64,000 bases of DNA, taken from contig NZ_CP095412.1 of assembly GCF_023016265.1 (NCBI RefSeq), forward strand, positions 992,001-1,056,000, written 5' to 3'. The position numbers and the translations under genes are program-made. This DNA comes from Blastococcus sp. PRF04-17. Its GTDB lineage: Bacteria > Actinomycetota > Actinomycetes > Mycobacteriales > Geodermatophilaceae. The stretch's first letter is position 1. Each line of letters starts with the position of its first letter. A model generated the notes under the pieces. The model made no database searches. It worked only from the letters and a program-made list of their open reading frames with translations, and was not told the DNA's origin. This document shows positions 1,650-10,047 of the stretch, in pieces.

Positions 1650-2096
1650 ATGTCCGACGCGACGATGGAGAGCATCCCCACCGACGAGTGCTACCGGCTC
1701 CTGGCCACGCACGAGATCGGGCGCATCGGCGTCAACGCCGAGCACTATCCCCTGATCCTGCCGGTCAACTACGGCATCGACGGCACCACCCTCGTGATCC
1801 GCACCCATCCGGGGACGATCCTGCGGGCCGCCCAGCACGCGAACGTCACGTTCCAGGTCGACGAGATCGACCGGGCCTCGCGCAGCGGCTGGAGCGTGCT
1901 GGTCCGCGGGCAGGCAGAGGAGGTCGGCCCCGAGCACCGGGCGGAGATCGTGGCCCGGACCGAGGCCACCGGCGTCCGGCCCTGGGCGCCGGGCGAGCAC
2001 GGGCACTGGGTGCGGCTGATCGTGCACGACATCTCGGGACGGCGGATCGTCCCCGGCCGGCTCCCGCCGCCCGTCGACCCCCGCGCGTACCTCTGA
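1650..2096 (+). CDS. pyridoxamine 5'-phosphate oxidase (PPOX) family protein
   Basis: Protein of 148 residues. I chose the ATG at 1650 because upstream in-frame codons encode only low-complexity Pro/Arg sequence, while from here the protein reads like other short PPOX proteins: an ECYRLL-type helix followed by LATHEIGRIGV and the LPVNYGIDG strand. The fold is a split beta-barrel that binds FMN, F420 or heme; these short actinobacterial members are rarely true PNP oxidases. It diverges from the Acg-like gene across about 100 bp, so both may share a stress-responsive control region. Substrate and cofactor cannot be told from sequence alone. Confidence 0.8.
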   Translation: MSDATMESIPTDECYRLLATHEIGRIGVNAEHYPLILPVNYGIDGTTLVIRTHPGTILRAAQHANVTFQVDEIDRASRSGWSVLVRGQAEEVGPEHRAEIVARTEATGVRPWAPGEHGHWVRLIVHDISGRRIVPGRLPPPVDPRAYL

Positions 2097-2306
2097 GGCA
2101 TTAGGCGCCGCCCCCTTCCCTAGGCCGGCTGCTGCCCAGACCGGTGCTCGAGCCATAACCCAGGACTGCGCCAGCTGAGTCGCCACCACTTGGTGGCCGC
2201 TCGCTGGTCTGAAGGTCGATTTAGGGGCCAGCAGCATAGGATGGTCTCGCGTGAACGCCGTAGCCACGGTTCGATGCGTCACGACGAGCCATCGGGAGAC
2301 TCAGCA

Positions 2307-3566
2307 TTGATTCACGGATTGCAGCTAACGAATTTCAAGAGTTTTGAGAGGTCTTCCTTCCAGCTCGCGCCGTTCACGCTCCTTGTCGGAGCGAACGCCA
2401 GCGGCAAATCCAACGTCCGCGAGGCCTTGCGGTTTCTGCATGGAGTGTCTCGGGGGTACACGCTCGCGGAGATCGTCGGCGAGAAGTGGGTTGAGGGCGG
2501 TGTGCGCGTGTGGACGGGCGTGCGGGGAGGTGCAGCCCAGGTCGCTCGCTTCGACTCCAGTACATTCTCACTGTGCGTCGAATTTTCGGCGGCGCCCGAG
2601 GGCGGGAAGACCGTACGCTTCAACTACCTCATCGAGGTGGAGCGCCTAGAGGACAATACTTTGAGGGTCATTCGAGAGCACTTGAAGGAATCGAACAGGT
2701 ACATCTTCGACACACATCCCGATGGCGATCCCCGCGGCCACGCCCCGCCGATGCTGAAGGCGCGAATCAGAAAGGGGGGCGGCGGATACCCTCCCGACGA
2801 TTCGTTCCTCGATGACCGGCCAATCCTTGTACAGATGCTGACGTCTAGCGTCGCGACGGAGATTACGAAGCGGCCACTAAGGCTTGCTCTGTCATTCCTC
2901 TCCTCCATGGTCTTTCTAGATCTCAATCCTCATGCAGCTAGAGATGCCAGCCCCGTGGGGATCGCCATTCTCGGCGATAGAGGAGAGAATCTATCCTCGG
3001 TTCTCTACAACATTTGCAAGGATGAGCGGCGTAAGGCGCAGCTCACTTCCTGGGTTCGCGCCCTGACACCTATGGATGCCGTCGACGTCAGTTTCCGAGA
3101 AGACCTCAACGGTCGAGTGCTCGCACTGCTCGTCGAGGATCGGGGTGACATCACGCCTCTCACTTCGGCCTCCGATGGCACCGTGCGGTTTTTGGCGATG
3201 ATCGCGGCCCTGATGAATCCTGCTCGCCCGCAATTTCTGTTCTTTGAAGAGATTGAGAACGGCATACACCCCAACCGAGTGTACCTCCTCCTAGACTTGA
3301 TCAGTCAAAGCGTTACTGCTAACAGGTCGCAGATCGTTGCGACTTCACACTCGCCGCAGATGTTGGTGCACGCCTACCGGTCAGACGACGCCAGTCCCTC
3401 ACTTGTATTTCGAGACGAAGCGGGAAGGTCGCACGTGGTCGATGTTCAGGCGGCGGAGGAGCTGCGCCGCATCCTCGACGTCGAAGATCCAGCCTCATTG
3501 ATGGCGGCGGGATGGTTCGAGGATACCGCCGCCTTCCTGAGCGATCACTTCGAGTTCACTCACTGA
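2307..3566 (+). CDS. OLD/AAA_21-type ATPase of a two-gene module
   Basis: Predicted SMC/ABC-like ATPase of 419 residues. From the chosen TTG the protein begins I-H-G-L-Q-L-T-N-F-K-S-F, the usual N-terminus of this family, and GGGAG lies 8 nt upstream (2294-2298); ATGs at 2241 and 2274 are alternatives. Walker A is GANASGKS (about residues 28-35), a signature-like segment SDGTVRFLAM lies near 290, Walker B is FLFFEEIE near 310, and the switch histidine is in TSHSPQML. The stop overlaps the next start (TGATG), so the two proteins are probably made together. Codon use is clearly more AT-rich than in flanking genes, suggesting acquisition. Architecture resembles OLD, PARIS and AbiL ATPases; a defence role is inference. 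Confidence 0.75.
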   Translation: MIHGLQLTNFKSFERSSFQLAPFTLLVGANASGKSNVREALRFLHGVSRGYTLAEIVGEKWVEGGVRVWTGVRGGAAQVARFDSSTFSLCVEFSAAPEGGKTVRFNYLIEVERLEDNTLRVIREHLKESNRYIFDTHPDGDPRGHAPPMLKARIRKGGGGYPPDDSFLDDRPILVQMLTSSVATEITKRPLRLALSFLSSMVFLDLNPHAARDASPVGIAILGDRGENLSSVLYNICKDERRKAQLTSWVRALTPMDAVDVSFREDLNGRVLALLVEDRGDITPLTSASDGTVRFLAMIAALMNPARPQFLFFEEIENGIHPNRVYLLLDLISQSVTANRSQIVATSHSPQMLVHAYRSDDASPSLVFRDEAGRSHVVDVQAAEELRRILDVEDPASLMAAGWFEDTAAFLSDHFEFTH

Positions 3567-4129
3567 TGACGTACAACGTTCTTGTTATTCCCGAGGATGC
3601 CACCAAAGATCATTACATTCTCAAGCCGATAGTCCAGGCCATGCTGGGCCACGCCGGAAGACCGCACGCGCGGGTTCGAGTCATGATCGATCCGGCCGTC
3701 CAAGGTATTTCGAATTTGACGAGCAACTTTCTGGAAGACGTTATTCAGCGCTATCCAATGGTCGACGCTTTCGTCCTCTGCGTTGACCGAGACGGCGTTA
3801 GCGGTCGCGATACGGCGATGAGCAACCGAGAAACGGCGGCACAGGCTCACCTGCTTCCGTCGCAGAGCTTTTTCGCCACTACCGCGCACCAGGAACTGGA
3901 AGTCTGGTGCCTTGCTGGCATGGACGATCTGCCCAAGGGTTGGCGTTGGCAAGCGATCCGCGCGGACGCCAGCGCAAAAGAAAACTACTACGAACCTTAC
4001 GCGGGGCGCCGTGGACTCCTAGATGCTCCCGGGGATGGTCGGGAGATCTTGGGGCGCGAGGCAGCCACTCGGTATAGGGCCGTCCGGACGCGTTGCGGCG
4101 AAGTGGCGCAACTCGAACAGCGCTTCTGA
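3566..4129 (+). CDS. TOPRIM-like (DUF4276/DUF4435-type) partner protein
   Basis: Protein of 187 residues whose ATG overlaps the ATPase stop (TGATG), implying translational coupling. The first strand ends in IPEDATKD (E10), and a second strand ends in VLCVDRDG (D74, D76). An acidic residue after strand one followed by DxD is the metal-binding layout of TOPRIM nucleases and primases. HQELEVWCLAG near 108-118 resembles a conserved segment of small ATPase-partner proteins. TOPRIM partners of ATPases act as nucleases in OLD, PARIS (AriB) and related systems; nuclease activity here is inferred. AT-richer than its neighbours, like the ATPase. It ends 17 bp before the convergent EamA gene. Confidence 0.6.
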   Translation: MTYNVLVIPEDATKDHYILKPIVQAMLGHAGRPHARVRVMIDPAVQGISNLTSNFLEDVIQRYPMVDAFVLCVDRDGVSGRDTAMSNRETAAQAHLLPSQSFFATTAHQELEVWCLAGMDDLPKGWRWQAIRADASAKENYYEPYAGRRGLLDAPGDGREILGREAATRYRAVRTRCGEVAQLEQRF

Positions 4130-4146
4130 TCGCGACTGTTGAGCGC

Positions 4147-5106
4147 TTAGACCAAGGGGCCGGCCTCCTGCGCCGGGGGCATCGGCGGGCGGACCCGGCC
4201 GCGCCGGCGCGAGAGCGCGACCCCGGCCAGGCAGACCGCGCCGCCGACCAGGGCCAGCGGTGGCGGCACCTCGTGGAGCAGCAGCCAGCCGAGCAGGATG
4301 ACCAGGGGCGGCACCAGGTAGGTGGTGACAGCCAGCTTGCCGGCGTCCATGCGGCTCAGCGCGTACGCCCAGGTGGTGAACGCCAGCGCGGTCGGCACCG
4401 CGCCGAGGTACACCATGCCCAGCACCGAACCGGCCGGCGCGGCCGCGACCTCGTCGGCCAGGGCGCCGGCCCAGGGCAGCCAGCACACCGCGCCGATGGC
4501 GCAGGCGAGGAACGTGACCTGCAGGCCGGGCAGCCGCCGCAGCAGGGGCTTCTGCGCGACCACTCCCCCGGCGTAGGTGACCGCCGCGACGACGCAGAAC
4601 ACGACGCCGACGACATCGGTCTCCGCGCTCCGGGTGGCCAGGCCGATGAGCACGACACCGGTGAACGCGACGGCGATGCCCGCGATCAGCCAACGCGGGA
4701 AGCCCTCGCCCAGCAGCAGTCCGGCGAACGCCGCGATCAGGATCGGCCCGATGTTCACCAGCATCGCCGTCGTCCCGGCGTCCAGGTACTGCTCGGCTGC
4801 GTTGAGTGCGACGTTGTAGACGCCGAACCACCCGACGCCGCAGACGACGACGAGCGCCCACTCGGACCGGGTCGGCCGCACCCACCGCCGCGCACCGGCC
4901 AGCAGCAGGCCGAGGGCGGCGGTGCCGACCAGCAGGCGGCCGAGAGCGAGGGCTCCGGGTGAGAGGTCCTCACCCACGCCGCGGATGGCCACGAAGGTCG
5001 AGGCCCACGCGACGAGGGTGACCACCACGGCGAGGACCGTGCGGGCCCCGGGACCGCTCGGCGGCGTGGCCGGCACGGTGGCGGACGGGGCGAGCTGCGT
5101 GGTCAC
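4147..5106 (-). CDS. EamA-family (DMT superfamily) transporter
   Basis: Protein of 319 residues with a GTG start. It consists of two tandem repeats of about five hydrophobic helices each, the layout of the 10-TM drug/metabolite transporter superfamily. Typical features are the early WASTFVAIR segment and the PPLVILLGWLLLHE motif in the second half. Members export amino acids, metabolites or drugs; the substrate is not deducible. A short Pro-rich cytoplasmic tail follows the last helix. Single gene, convergent with the TOPRIM-like gene. Confidence 0.85.
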   Translation of the reverse strand: MTTQLAPSATVPATPPSGPGARTVLAVVVTLVAWASTFVAIRGVGEDLSPGALALGRLLVGTAALGLLLAGARRWVRPTRSEWALVVVCGVGWFGVYNVALNAAEQYLDAGTTAMLVNIGPILIAAFAGLLLGEGFPRWLIAGIAVAFTGVVLIGLATRSAETDVVGVVFCVVAAVTYAGGVVAQKPLLRRLPGLQVTFLACAIGAVCWLPWAGALADEVAAAPAGSVLGMVYLGAVPTALAFTTWAYALSRMDAGKLAVTTYLVPPLVILLGWLLLHEVPPPLALVGGAVCLAGVALSRRRGRVRPPMPPAQEAGPLV

Positions 5107-5293
5107 GACCGCAATCTAGGCAGGACCTCCGACCGGTTCCGGCGGTTTCCGGACGGGGCGTCGGTGTCGGCCGTCCCGCTGCGGGATCTGGCAGGACCGG
5201 TGCGGTTCGCCCGCTGCGTGCGCGGCCACCGGGCTCAGGTGGGCCAGCTCGAGGACGTCGACCAGCGCCGGCGTCCCGGAACGGGCTCCTGTC

Positions 5294-6042
5294 TCACCCG
5301 TGCAGGTGCTGGGTGTAGGTCCGCCGTCCGCGGGCGCCGCCGGTCGGCACCGCCGCGCCGTCCCGCAGCGCCGAGCTCATCCGGCCCGGGACGGGGGTCG
5401 CGACCACGTGCGTTCCTGGGGCGCGGGCCGAGACCCAGGCCCGGGCCAGGTCCGCGGCGGAGAGCTCCTCGGGGCCGCCGAACTCGACGGCGCCGCCGCC
5501 GGTGGGCCGGACACCACCTCGACGACGTGCGCAGCCACCTCGCCGGCGTCGACCGGCTGCACCCGCCAGCCCATCGGCACGGGCAGGACCGGCCCCTTGC
5601 GGGCAGAGTCGAGGAGGAAGTCGACGAGGTCGTGGAACTGGGTGACGCGCAGGAGGGTCACCGGCAGGCCGGAGGCGAGCAGCACCTGCTCGGCGGCGAA
5701 CTTGGCGCGGTAGTAGCCGAAGGGGATGCGGTCGACCCCGACGATCGAGACGTAGACGAGGTGCCGCAGGCGCTCCCGGTCCGCCGCCTGGACCACCCGC
5801 CGGGTGCCTGCGACGTCGACCTCCCACGGGTCCCCGCCGGGGTATCCCGTCGCCGCGTGGACGACGACCTCCGCCCCGGCCAGCGCCGTCCCGAGATCCC
5901 GTCCGGTGGCCAGGTCACCCCGCACTCCGCCCGGGCCGGTGCCCCGGCGTGACATCTGCCGCACCGTGTGACCGGCGGCCTGCAGCGGCCCGAGGAGGTG
6001 CTGTCCGAGGCGGCCGGTGCCGCCGGTCACGAGAACGTCCAC
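5294..6042 (-). pseudogene. NmrA-like NAD(P)-binding protein, frameshifted
   Basis: From a GTG at 6042 the protein starts MDVLVTGGTGRLGQHLL, the Rossmann glycine motif of atypical short-chain dehydrogenases, and continues with the VHAATGYP and YYRAKFAAE segments of the NmrA/SDR_a5 type. At about 5500-5515 (in GPP before GGGAVEF) the frame breaks: the C-terminal part (VEFGGPEELSAADLARAW to the stop) lies in another frame, and one added base would restore a protein of about 248 residues. The IS110 element begins directly upstream of the start codon, so the natural promoter may also be lost. Either a decaying gene or a sequencing error. Confidence 0.75.
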
Positions 6043-6055
6043 GCGTGGCTCCTAT

Positions 6056-7360
6056 GTCAAGCCGCCTGCGGCAGGCAAGCCGCGGCGGGTTGGTCGGTGG
6101 GTCGTAGCAGGTTGAAGACGATGCGGGCCAGGCGTCGCTTGAGGGCGCGCAGGGCCTCCATCGAGCTGTCACCTTCGCTGCGTCGGCGCTGGTAGTAGGC
6201 GCGTCCGAGGCAGCCGTCGAGACGGATCTGGGTGACCGCGATGCGATGCAGCGCGGCGTTGAGCTGGCGGTTGCCGCCGCGGGCCAGTCGATGCCGGTTC
6301 GTCTTGCCCGAGGAGGCCGGGATCGGCGCTGCGCCGGCGTGCATGGCGAAACAGGCCTCGGAACGGAATCGGGTGGGGTTGGCCGTCTCGCCGACCAGCT
6401 TCGCGGCGGTGAGCGGCCCGCAGCCGGGCAGGTCGAGCAGCTGTGGCGCCTGCGCCGAGACCAGGCCGGTGATCTCCCGCTCGAGGGCATTGACCCGGAC
6501 GGTCAGCTCGCGGATGTCGGTGAGGATCTCCAGCGCCAACCGCCGGACCAGTGAGGCCGGCAGCGCCTGGAGCCGGGCGTGCACCCGGTCCAGTTCCTTG
6601 GTCCGGTTCAGGCCGCGGGCGATCGGGTCGATGTCGGGATCGAGTTCGTGCAGGTGCCAGCGCAGCCGGTTCTGCGCCTTGGTGCGGATCTCCACCAGAT
6701 CCTCGCGCCGGTCGACCAGCAGCTTCAGCTCTCGGGAGGCATGCGTGTGCTCGGCGCGGGCCAACCCGGGTTCACGCAGCGCCGCCCGGCCGATGGCCAG
6801 CGCGTCGATCGGATCGGACTTTCCCCGAGTGCGAGCACTCGTGCGGGTCTGGGCCATCAGCTTCGGCGGCACCCGCACCACGACCGCGGCCGCATCCAGC
6901 AGCGCCCGCTCCAGCCGCGACGACACATGCCGGCAGTCCTCGACCGCGAACTCCACCGACTCCTCGGTGAACTCCCGGCGCGCCCAGCGCAGCAGCTGCC
7001 GGTGCCCGGCGTCGGTGGCGCGCACCGTGACCGCCGATCCGACCTGCCGACCAGCCTCATCCACGGCCACCGCGCAGTGCGTCATCTTGTGGACGTCGAT
7101 CCCAATCGTCATCACCATGGAGGCGTCTCCTTTCTGCAGGAGGGGACGGTTGGGCCGGCCGGCGGACACACCTCAGTGGGGGCGCAGCCACGCTCCTATC
7201 AAGTCACGCCGGTCGGCCCTGACCAGCGATGATCGGCACAACGCATGATCGCCAGCTCCACCAGGAGCGGCACGCAGTCTGCGAGCCAGATCATCACCGG
7301 CCAGGATCCCAACCCCCGCAACCAGACGGCGCGGTGCTCAGCACCCTGACACTGAGGTGC
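6056..7360 (-). mobile_element. IS110-family insertion sequence
   Basis: Contains one DEDD transposase gene (6057-7118), read leftward, whose stop lies one base inside the presumed left boundary, as in elements with a very short right end. IS110 elements normally lack inverted repeats and usually make no long target duplication, so limits are hard to set. An 8-bp direct repeat, GCTCCTAT, occurs at 6048-6055 and 7192-7199 and could mark ends, but that leaves only about 75 nt before the transposase. The non-coding stretch continues to the hydrolase gene at 7424, and a 10-bp inverted repeat (7169-7178 / 7350-7359) suggests the element extends to about 7360. The right boundary is therefore approximate. 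Confidence 0.7.
6057..7118 (-). CDS. IS110-family transposase (DEDD recombinase)
   Basis: Protein of 353 residues. I chose the ATG at 7118 because AGGAG lies about 8 nt upstream and the protein then opens MVMTIGIDVHK, the first catalytic Asp motif. Further catalytic segments are FAVEDC, KSDPIDA, and in the C-terminal Transposase_20 domain LLDLPGCGP and PASSGKTNRHRLARGGN, which holds the active-site serine. The length is normal for the family, with no break, so it is probably functional. IS110 recombinases use a bridge RNA encoded in the non-coding end next to the gene to choose target and donor (established for IS621). Confidence 0.92.
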   Translation of the reverse strand: MVMTIGIDVHKMTHCAVAVDEAGRQVGSAVTVRATDAGHRQLLRWARREFTEESVEFAVEDCRHVSSRLERALLDAAAVVVRVPPKLMAQTRTSARTRGKSDPIDALAIGRAALREPGLARAEHTHASRELKLLVDRREDLVEIRTKAQNRLRWHLHELDPDIDPIARGLNRTKELDRVHARLQALPASLVRRLALEILTDIRELTVRVNALEREITGLVSAQAPQLLDLPGCGPLTAAKLVGETANPTRFRSEACFAMHAGAAPIPASSGKTNRHRLARGGNRQLNAALHRIAVTQIRLDGCLGRAYYQRRRSEGDSSMEALRALKRRLARIVFNLLRPTDQPAAACLPQAA

Positions 7361-7423
7361 AGTCTGTCGGGCCGGCGGGGATCGGAACAGCCCCGTCCGC
7401 CGGCGACGGGGCAGGATGCCGGG
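7119..7423 (-). ncRNA. non-coding end of IS110, possible bridge-RNA region
   Basis: A gene-free stretch of 305 bp upstream of the transposase. CACCTCAGTG at 7169-7178 and its exact reverse complement at 7350-7359 would enclose about 190 nt, near the size of known bridge RNAs (177 nt in IS621). Inside lie a GGTGC-TCA-GCACC hairpin at 7333-7345 and the inverted pair GATGATC (7228-7234) / GATCATC (7289-7295). I could not identify target- or donor-binding loops. The same stretch must also carry the promoter of the hydrolase at 7424 if the element ends earlier. Confidence 0.3.
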
Positions 7424-8419
7424 GTGCCCGCTCCACATCCGCCGTCCGAACCCATCGACTCCGGCCTGCTCGACGTCGGGGGCGGCCACGCCGTCCACTG
7501 GGAGGTGCACGGCGCTCCCGGCGGCCTGCCGGCGGTGGTGGTGCACGGCGGGCCGGGCGCTCCGGCGAGGGGCATGCACCGGCTGCTCGACCCGGCGACC
7601 TGGCGCTGCGTCGTCCTCCATCAGCGCAACTGCGGCCTGAGCACGCCGTCGGCGGCCGACCCCGCCACCGACCTGTCGGGCAACACGACCGCTGCGCTGG
7701 TCACCGACATGGAGGCCGTGCGGGCGCACCTCGGCATCGACCGGTGGCTGGTGTTCGGCGCCTCGTGGGGCACGACGCTCGGGCTGGCCTACGCCGAGGC
7801 CCATCCCGAGCGGGTCTCGGCGATGGTGCTGCTGGCCGTCGGCACGACCGGCGAGCGCGAGGTCACCTGGATCACCAGGGACATGGGCCGGATCTGGCCG
7901 GAGGCGTGGGCGCGCTTCCGCGACGGCGTCCCCGAGGCCGACCGCGACGGCGACCTGGCGACCGCCTACGCACGACTGCTCGCCTCGCCCGACGCGGCGG
8001 TGCGCGAGGAGGCGGCGCGCAACTGGTGTGCCTGGGAGGACGTGCACGTCTCCCTCGACCCGGCGTGGCAGCCGAACCCGAGGTTCGAGGACCCCGTCTT
8101 CCGGCTGGAGTTCGCCCGGCTGGTCACGCACTACTGGTCGAACCGCGCCTTCCTCCCCGACGGCCAGCTGCTGCGCGATGCCGGCCGGCTGGCCGGCATC
8201 CCCGGCGTCCTGGTCACCGGCCGGTTCGACGTCAGCGGTCCGCCGGACATCGCCTGGCACCTGCACCGGGCCTGGCCCGGCAGCGAGCTGATCATCGAGG
8301 AGGGCGGTGGACACGGAACCGGGCAGGGCGCCGTCCTGGACGACGCCTTCACCCGGCTCGCCGGCGTCGTCGGCGTGGCGAACCGGTCCGGTCCGAGCGG
8401 TATCTCACAGACGAGATAA
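7424..8419 (+). CDS. alpha/beta hydrolase, proline iminopeptidase-like (S33)
   Basis: Protein of 331 residues from the GTG at 7424, the usual length for prolyl aminopeptidases (about 310-330). Oxyanion-hole motif VVVHGGPGAPA, a diverged LHQRNCGLSTPS in place of the common DQRGCGRS, nucleophile elbow GASWGT (Ser), acid in TGRFDVSGP and histidine in EGGGHGTG. The family removes N-terminal proline or hydrolyses small amides and esters; the altered DQRG motif makes exact specificity uncertain. Codons upstream of 7424 in the same frame look non-coding. Its last codons overlap a perfect inverted repeat just upstream of the HTH-MurA gene. Confidence 0.85.
   Translation: MPAPHPPSEPIDSGLLDVGGGHAVHWEVHGAPGGLPAVVVHGGPGAPARGMHRLLDPATWRCVVLHQRNCGLSTPSAADPATDLSGNTTAALVTDMEAVRAHLGIDRWLVFGASWGTTLGLAYAEAHPERVSAMVLLAVGTTGEREVTWITRDMGRIWPEAWARFRDGVPEADRDGDLATAYARLLASPDAAVREEAARNWCAWEDVHVSLDPAWQPNPRFEDPVFRLEFARLVTHYWSNRAFLPDGQLLRDAGRLAGIPGVLVTGRFDVSGPPDIAWHLHRAWPGSELIIEEGGGHGTGQGAVLDDAFTRLAGVVGVANRSGPSGISQTR
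8401..8418. promoter_or_regulatory. candidate operator upstream of the HTH-MurA gene
   Basis: TATCTC-ACAGAC-GAGATA is a perfect 6-bp inverted repeat with a 6-nt spacer, ending 10 nt before the GTG of the next gene, whose product carries an XRE-type HTH. The arrangement suggests autoregulation. It also forms the last codons and stop of the hydrolase gene. Confidence 0.4.
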
Positions 8420-8428
8420 CGTGTTCGG

Positions 8429-9988
8429 GTGACGCTGACCGATCTCCCCGTCGACAGGTCCCCCGCCCACGAGAGCACGCGACGGATCGGTGCGCTCGTC
8501 CGTGACGCCCGCCGGCACCGCGGACTCACCCAGCAGCAGCTGGCCGACCGGCTGGGCACCAGCCAGAGCGCCGTGGCCCGGATCGAGCAGGGCGGCCAGA
8601 ACCTCACCCTGGAGCTCCTGAGCCGCCTCTCCGCTGCGCTGGACAGCGAGCTGATCAGCCTGGGGCCGACGGGCCCCACCCACCTCCGCGTGGCCGGCGG
8701 CCACCCGCTGCGCGGCAGCGTGACGGTGAAGTCGTCGAAGAACGCGGCGGTCGCGCTGCTCTGCGCCTCGCTGCTCAACCGTGGCCGGACGACGTTGCGC
8801 AACGTCGCCCGGATCGTCGAGGTCGACCGGATCCTCGACGTGCTGCGCTCGATCGGCGTCTCGGCCACCTGGGACGACAGCGGCCACGACCTCACCCTCG
8901 TCGTCCCCGAGCGGCTGGACCTAACCGGCATCGACGCCGACGCCGCCCGCCGGACCCGCAGCATCATCATGTTCCTCGGGCCCCTGCTACACCGGGCCGA
9001 GGAGTTCGAGCTGCCCTACGCCGGCGGGTGCGACCTCGGCACCCGCACGGTCCAGCCGCACATGATCGCGTTGCGGCCCTTCGGTCTGGAGGTCGAGGCG
9101 CACGCCGGCGAGTACCACGCGACGGTGCGGCGCGGCGGTCCGGCCGACCGCACGATCGTGCTGACCGAGCGCGGCGACACCGTGACGGAGAACGCCCTGC
9201 TGGCCGCGGCGCGCACCGAGGGCACCACGACGATCCGCAACGCCAGCTCGAACTACATGGTGCAGGACCTCTGCCTCTACCTGCAGCTCCTCGGGGTGGT
9301 CGTCGAGGGCCTGGGGACGACGACGCTCGTCGTCCACGGCCGCCCGGTGCTCGACGCGGACGTGGACTACACGATCAGCGAGGACCCGGTGGAGGCGATG
9401 AGCCTGCTCACCGCCGGCATCGTGACCGGGTCGGAGCTGACCGTGCGACGGGCGCCGGTCGAGTTCCTGGAGATCGAGCTCGCGGTCCTGGGCGAGATGG
9501 GGCTGCGCTACGAGCTGTCGCCGGAGTACCTCGCCGACAACGGCCACAGCCGCCTGGCCGACATCACGATCTCGCCGTCCACGCTCAAGGCGCCGATCGA
9601 CAAGATCCACCCGATGCCGTTCCCGGGTCTCAACATCGACAACCTGCCGTTCTTCGCGGTCATCGCCGCGCAGGCCGAGGGGTCGACGCTGATCCACGAC
9701 TAGGTCTACGACAACCGCGCGATCCACCTGTCCGACCTCACCCGGCTGGGCGCCGACGTCCGGCTGATGGACCCGCACCGGGTGCTGGTCAACGGCCCGA
9801 CGCGGTGGTCGAGCGCCGAGGTGGTCTGCCCGCCGGCCCTGCGGCCGGCGGTCTGCATCCTGCTGGCCATGCTCGCGGCCAAGGGCACCTCGGTGCTGCG
9901 CAACGTCGACATCATCGCGCGCGGGTACGAGCACCTCTACGAGCGGCTGGTCGAGATGGGCGCCTCGATCGAGGTCTTCCACGACTGA
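8429..9988 (+). pseudogene. HTH-MurA fusion (UDP-GlcNAc carboxyvinyltransferase-like), in-frame TAG
   Basis: The frame is open for 519 codons apart from one TAG at 9701-9703 (codon 425). Residues 20-75 are an XRE/Cro HTH domain (RGLTQQQLADRLGTSQSAVARIEQG); the rest is an EPSP/MurA fold with the lysine of SSKNAA (K104), the PEP-attacking cysteine in AGGCDLGTR (C201) and the aspartate of FPGLNIDNL. After LIHD comes TAG, then VYDNRAIHL; relatives read IHD-W-V-Y-E-N-R, so TAG probably replaces TGG (Trp). Downstream codons remain intact. The main murA of actinomycetes normally sits elsewhere, so this is a regulated paralogue. Truncation would remove about 95 residues of the enolpyruvyl transferase fold. 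Readthrough or a base-call error are alternatives. Confidence 0.8.
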
Positions 9989-10047
9989 AGAGCCACAACC
10001 GCGGTTTCGGCTCTTCAGTCGAGGAGCCGAAACCGCGGTTTCGGCTC
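9986..10047. repeat. paired palindromes with AACCGCGGTT core, locus 1
   Basis: Two palindromic units in tandem. Unit 1 (9986-10017) has arms TGAAGAGCC/GGCTCTTCA around AACCGCGGTT; unit 2 (10024-10047) is a perfect 24-bp palindrome with the same core. They fill the space between the convergent stops of the HTH-MurA gene and the amidohydrolase exactly. A related pair lies at 38660-38716. A bidirectional terminator role is plausible. Confidence 0.75.

Follow-up and report, generated by a model that had tools for sequence, protein, structure and literature searches.

An inserted ATPase/TOPRIM gene pair of foreign origin in Blastococcus sp. PRF04-17, a candidate PARIS-like anti-phage nuclease module

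In this work we analysed a stretch of 64,000 nucleotides from the genome of Blastococcus sp. PRF04-17 (NZ_CP095412.1, positions 992,001 to 1,056,000), hereafter called the window, and focused on two adjoining genes at its positions 2307 to 4129. The first encodes an OLD-type ABC ATPase of 419 residues and the second a TOPRIM-type protein of 187 residues that belongs to an unnamed family. The pair is an insertion of about 2 kb and of foreign origin in this genome. With a probability of roughly 60 %, we read it as a self-contained, horizontally moved anti-phage nuclease module of the PARIS kind, which is gated by its ATPase and acts abortively. The layout of an ATPase beside a TOPRIM protein is already known, and the pair is a variant of it, not a new category. 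An earlier note on this DNA had described the two reading frames, their lengths and one-base overlap, the motifs GANASGKS, SDGTVRF and FLFFEEIE of the ATPase, and residues E10 and D74-x-D76 of the small protein, all of which we found as described. The features are as follows.

2097–4146, no strand: inserted segment of about 2.05 kb; its two convergent flanking genes adjoin each other in relatives
2307–3566, plus strand: OLD-type ABC ATPase, 419 aa, TTG start (Pfam AAA_21, PADLOC PDC-M07A, 53-row alignment)
2388–2411, plus strand: Walker A GANASGKS; G28, N30, A31, G33, K34 and S35 invariant in the 53-row alignment
3171–3182, plus strand: ABC signature SDGT; S289, G291 and T292 invariant, D290 in at least 90 % of the same rows
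3234–3251, plus strand: Walker B FLFFEE; E314 invariant, E315 in at least 90 % of the same rows
3564–3568, plus strand: TGATG, stop codon of the ATPase gene over the start codon of the small gene (from the sequence)
3566–4129, plus strand: TOPRIM-type nuclease-like protein, 187 aa, unnamed family (AlphaFold2 model)
3593–3595, plus strand: E10, predicted first-metal ligand at the end of strand 1; 77 of 77 alignment rows
3785–3793, plus strand: D74-x-D76, DxD at the end of the third strand; D74 in 77 and D76 in 76 of 77 rows
3893–3901, plus strand: E110-x-E112, predicted second-metal ligands; 77 of 77 rows each; likened by order to T506/E508 of OLD as given in an excerpt of PMC6755086
3977–3979, plus strand: K138, predicted catalytic lysine; 77 of 77 rows; likened by order to K562 of OLD in the same excerpt

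The foreign origin of the pair is visible in its composition. The G+C content of 2307–4129 is 58.7 %, compared with 73.8 % in the rest of the window, and the pair lies at the G+C minimum: only three of 1244 sliding windows of its size are lower, all of them overlapping the pair, as do all five windows within 0.5 points of its value. Together with the empty sites in relatives, these values bear out the earlier description of the pair as AT-richer than its surroundings and foreign, and the local figure of 53 % that had been quoted near 3301–3360 was also right (32/60, or about 53 %, counted by eye at 3300–3359). The pair is flanked by a pyridoxamine-oxidase-like gene and an EamA transporter gene that face each other. 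Among 15 other genomes of the genus, these two genes abut in six, with aligned ends 7–30 bp apart (in one of the six, G033, the oxidase was matched in pieces only); the oxidase is missing there in four, where EamA lies 40–243 bp from the nitroreductase gene that follows; in three, EamA is present with neither neighbour within the stretch examined; and in G035, EamA itself was matched in pieces only. The small protein matched none of the 15 genomes, and neither protein of the pair was found in the 15 stretches examined at the site. In G028, the same intergenic spot is taken up by 8.2 kb of different genes, in part poorer in G+C (L153, G028:C7:77000-89000, about 1795-10030), and because of this the spot may be a recurrent landing place. 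A repeat search at the insert returned short imperfect repeats only, none of which frames the inserted segment. The remark that no mobile gene sits beside the pair is slightly off: an IS110-family transposase gene lies at 6057–7169, about 1.9 kb downstream and past two ordinary genes.

The two genes are joined on the plus strand by the one-base overlap in TGATG, and few-base overlaps recur in many homologous pairs, a pattern from which we infer that translation of the two is probably coupled. The TTG start of the ATPase at 2307 is preceded by GGGAG at 2294–2298 (read by eye), and an in-frame ATG at 2274 is a further possible start. A promoter and terminator scan of 2050–4250 found nothing.

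To place the pair among bacteria, 84,980 species genomes were scanned with three sequences of the small protein as the only seeds. At least 106 relatives were found, a lower bound because they were recovered by two short patterns, and the best 80 of the 106 were kept as loci. Judged by record title, the relatives come from many phyla, including Cyanobacteriota, Chloroflexota, Acidobacteriota, Planctomycetota, Pseudomonadota and Nitrospirota. An ATPase gene lies upstream on the same strand in 80 of the 80 kept loci, at a distance of 150 bp or less and mostly adjoining or overlapping (three loci are cut by contig ends). Since these loci were found through the small protein alone, the pairing is not due to chance. 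Distances between the partner proteins are also correlated (r 0.82 over 73 pairs, shared host descent not being removed, versus at most 0.16 in 2000 permutations), and the G+C content of the pair is below that of its flanks in 66 of 69 loci. The earlier note had asked about homologues that part from the ATPase and lie in core loci of relatives; what we observed is co-occurrence in every kept locus and rarity in the family. The small protein was matched in 2 of 112 family genomes, namely its own genome and G070, whose weak match (E 3.5e-6, 30 % identity) is read from inside a 1338-aa frame resembling a polyketide synthase by eye and was judged spurious. It was matched in 2 of 394 class-sample genomes and 2 of 396 phylum-sample genomes, its own genome being counted each time; the further matches there (G124 and G754) are genuine and come from a divergent sister subfamily (L005, L090).

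The larger protein had been called an OLD/AAA_21-type ATPase, in agreement with its match to Pfam AAA_21 at 9e-30; SMC_N was matched as well. Its best PADLOC model is PDC-M07A (1.9e-62, near full-length, residues 1–391), followed by HEC-01A (1e-39), and its profile matches chains of OLD, GajA and PtuA, and also of SMC and RecF. In a C-terminal stretch at residues 398–405 (3498–3521), L398, W403 and E405 are invariant in 53 rows, and this stretch could be a docking site for the TOPRIM partner. We built a tree of 86 ATPases by a quick method, in which the outgroup branches are very long. The closest ATPase in this tree is that of Brachybacterium timonense (52 % identity), and the rows sort by partner type, with a support of only 26 for the branch that separates the 78 ATPases with a TOPRIM partner. 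A clade of 31 rows (support 100; members include L033, L047, L049, L054, L060, L066, L078 and L081) brings together Nitrospirota, Chloroflexota, Acidobacteriota, Gemmatimonadota, Latescibacterota and Pseudomonadota. The names of several of its bins resemble those of microbiome series from sponges or corals, a hint that the cassette may have been exchanged within a single habitat.

The small protein is very probably an active TOPRIM-type phosphodiesterase. Searches of Pfam, PADLOC and NCBIfam with it returned nothing at E 1, and its AlphaFold2 model reached a predicted local distance difference test score (pLDDT) of 95.6 and a predicted template-modelling score (pTM) of 0.91. The modelled order of strands (E) and helices (H) is E4-9 H12-29 E36-39 H53-62 E68-74, so that E10 and D74-x-D76 are predicted to sit at strand ends of an alternating alpha/beta fold, as in a TOPRIM domain. 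The TOPRIM-like acidic layout that had been read from the letters is therefore reproduced by the model topology and by residue conservation, and the prediction has the TOPRIM topology that had been called for, though the structural match is not decisive. A search of the small-protein profile against sequences of the Protein Data Bank (PDB) gave a single irrelevant match (E 0.75). Profile comparisons, with few rows each, were negative for RloB (3.0 %) and for a PIN control (1.6 %). Chains of AriB and RloB were not among the 50 fold-search matches listed, which excludes nothing.

By analogy, the layout shared with PARIS and with the wider OLD-ABC/nuclease dyads, plus the precedent of the two-gene system WonAB, is what leads us to favour an ATPase-gated anti-phage nuclease. 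The ATPase would sense a trigger linked to infection and control the small TOPRIM protein, which would be a two-metal phosphodiesterase, that is, a nuclease. Once released or activated, this protein would cut host or phage nucleic acid and halt phage production, probably at a cost to the infected cell, as in PARIS. A physical complex, the nuclease activity, the trigger and the defence role of the pair are what we infer, and the odds are about even that the substrate is RNA (tRNA, as for AriB) or DNA (as for OLD and GajA).

Several results weigh against this reading. The Foldseek search of the small-protein model gave no PDB match below 1e-3, and in the fold search the match to OLD ranked level with those to Argonaute MID domains (8.3) and to lumazine synthase (7.9). 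Profile comparison was negative with five OLD TOPRIM sequences (0.5 %), and with DUF4276 it gave 71 % only when all 4 rows were used and 0.7–13 % for subsets, at most a hint of remote kinship between the small protein and DUF4276. The pair was found on one of 72,556 plasmid records and on one viral contig only, and the ATPase had no match in 50,697 phage records. Finally, PADLOC families were not enriched near the pair (11 near versus 23 far at 1e-15, 148 proteins each), in a weak test that counts families instead of proteins and takes its far set from the same loci. This test drew 148 near and 148 far open reading frames of the 80 loci at random from 222 and 176; before frames longer than 650 aa were dropped, the pools held 258 and 190, called as longest frames. 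The co-occurrence with defence genes that the earlier note had in mind thus shows no excess among near neighbours. The neighbours are varied, each Pfam family being limited to 4 or fewer of the 148 near proteins (among the 25 of 119 families listed), and the pair looks more like a stand-alone mobile cassette than like a gene of a defence island.

On the viral contig (L112), the pair lies at 4751–6579 within a cluster of phage structural genes. Its neighbours on both sides resemble tail genes by eye, and about 5 kb downstream follows a major capsid gene identified by Pfam; at 1e-4, Pfam matched neither the tape-measure-like nor the sheath-like protein. The DNA of this copy is about 96 % identical to that of copies from Brasilonema, and close to one of these (L023) the sheath-like protein is weakly matched too (26 %, 4e-8). 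The position in the structural gene cluster and the identity to the Brasilonema copies suggest recent phage carriage of the pair in cyanobacteria. The small protein of the window, used alone as query in a viral scan, had no match, and a viral scan with the ATPase likewise found none. Weak matches to the small protein in nine phage records were set aside: that in PSP3 is antisense to the tail tube gene and hence a chance match, and in the eight remaining records the match is likewise placed under a gene of this kind.

An adjoining two-gene unit that is scattered among bacteria, with one copy plasmid-borne and another in a phage contig, could also be a plain toxin-antitoxin system. The ATPase would then sequester and so neutralise a toxic TOPRIM protein, addiction would maintain the cassette, and defence would be a side effect or play no part. 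PARIS itself lends some weight to this, since an excerpt of PMC12409363 describes AriA as holding AriB sequestered and then freeing it as a tRNase. However, the partner here has the conserved Walker A, signature and Walker B motifs of an ABC ATPase, which goes beyond what sequestration needs, and in the comparable prophage dyad WonAB, which can stop translation, toxicity requires the ATPase, whose part is not neutralisation (excerpt of PMC12137116). We therefore consider a plain toxin-antitoxin role unlikely.

RecF-RecR is a RecF/SMC-like ATPase with a TOPRIM partner, and the pair might likewise serve DNA repair or chromosome maintenance, as RecF-RecR or the archaeal Cran1 do. The matches of the ATPase to SMC_N and to SMC and RecF chains fit such a role, and Cran1 is an example of an OLD protein with a role in the cell cycle. 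However, the pair is rare and sporadic in the family, class and phylum samples and its insertion site is empty in relatives, and because it is so scattered a core function is improbable; we give this explanation little credence. Equally little speaks for an inactive or non-nucleolytic TOPRIM protein that would assist the ATPase by regulating it or by binding nucleotides: the match by fold leaves room for this and our literature searches yielded no assay of any family member, but D15 is invariant in the 77-row alignment along with E10, D74, E110, E112 and K138, and with D76 they resemble the two-metal set of OLD as far as the excerpt of PMC6755086 describes it.

The anti-phage module that we favour is best seen next to the systems it resembles. 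In PARIS (AriA/AriB; split, class 4 OLD), an OLD-type ABC ATPase gene likewise stands beside a separate TOPRIM gene, as in the window and in all 80 kept loci; its tRNA cleavage is triggered by phage proteins, Ocr being one. However, neither the AriB model nor DUF4435 was listed for any of 77 members of the small-protein family at E 0.1, and therefore we do not file the pair as PARIS. The RloB model was listed for one of the 77, at E 0.011, and the earlier view of the small protein as neither a plain AriB nor a plain RloB stands. The OLD nucleases and GajA also combine an ABC ATPase with a TOPRIM domain and have two-metal residues that may correspond by order to those found here, according to the excerpt of PMC6755086, whereas OLD nucleases of classes 1–3 and GajA are one chain and two separate genes are found in the window and in the kept loci. 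The metal residues were likened by their order in the sequence, and D15 lies at +5 from the glutamate here and at +4 in OLD; the OLD TOPRIM model PF20469 was not listed for any of the 77 members.

HEC-01 and DUF4276 share the combination of an ATPase with a small DxD / ExExW protein. One HEC-01B model matches 13 of 77 members weakly (best E 1.2e-4) and DUF4276 (PF14103) matches 16 of 77 weakly at E 0.1 (best 2.5e-4), whereas the window protein itself matches neither at E 1; DUF4276 is thus the nearest named family, though a weak match. WonAB is, in the excerpt of PMC12137116, a prophage-carried pair of an OLD-like ABC ATPase and a nuclease, but WonB is there a predicted PD-(D/E)xK nuclease. 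Such OLD-ABC/nuclease dyads form a wider set, and it is becoming apparent that their ATPases serve as a general scaffold for sensing, fitted with different nucleases, as an excerpt of PMC12839542 puts it.

The ATPase of the pair fits PDC-M07A of PADLOC, but no PDC-M07B model was matched by the window protein (E 1) or listed for any of the 77 members (E 0.1), and judged by its composition the pair is not PDC-M07. The PDC-M07B model PDLC04394 is absent from the genome of the window and present in 2 of 396 phylum-sample genomes, where the protein is PIN-like by eye. PIN-like proteins (IIDTSVFLNILDVP) also follow distant relatives of this ATPase on the two plasmids examined; one of them, tested against Pfam, had no match, the PIN reading being made by eye. 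On the conjugative plasmid pAQU1 (L168, 6001–7777), such an ATPase and its PIN-like partner (by eye) lie within a type I restriction operon, with hsdS on one side and hsdR on the other. A tentative further step, which we hold to be possible but not probable, is that the pair belongs to a split ATPase/TOPRIM immunity lineage separate from PARIS. Its sensor ATPase, of PDC-M07 type, would carry a TOPRIM effector where related ATPases use a PIN effector, a natural exchange of effectors on a common sensor scaffold, and the cassette would lie mostly outside defence islands and be missed by island-based surveys. We keep this tentative because the PIN call was made by eye and the tree gives no support for a sister relation of the PIN-bearing ATPases.

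No paper on DUF4276 or PDC-M07 was found in our search of the open literature. The effector family is unnamed in Pfam, NCBIfam and PADLOC, and it may already stand in a 2020 survey of ABC ATPases or in a 2024 preprint on embedded defence systems. Scoring the ATPase alone would annotate the locus as half of PDC-M07. The pair adds an unnamed effector family that spans many phyla without defence genes enriched nearby (in a small test), where island-based discovery does not look, and a comparison of TOPRIM-bearing and PIN-bearing relatives within one ATPase family would bear on whether the trigger is determined by the ATPase and the kind of damage by its partner.
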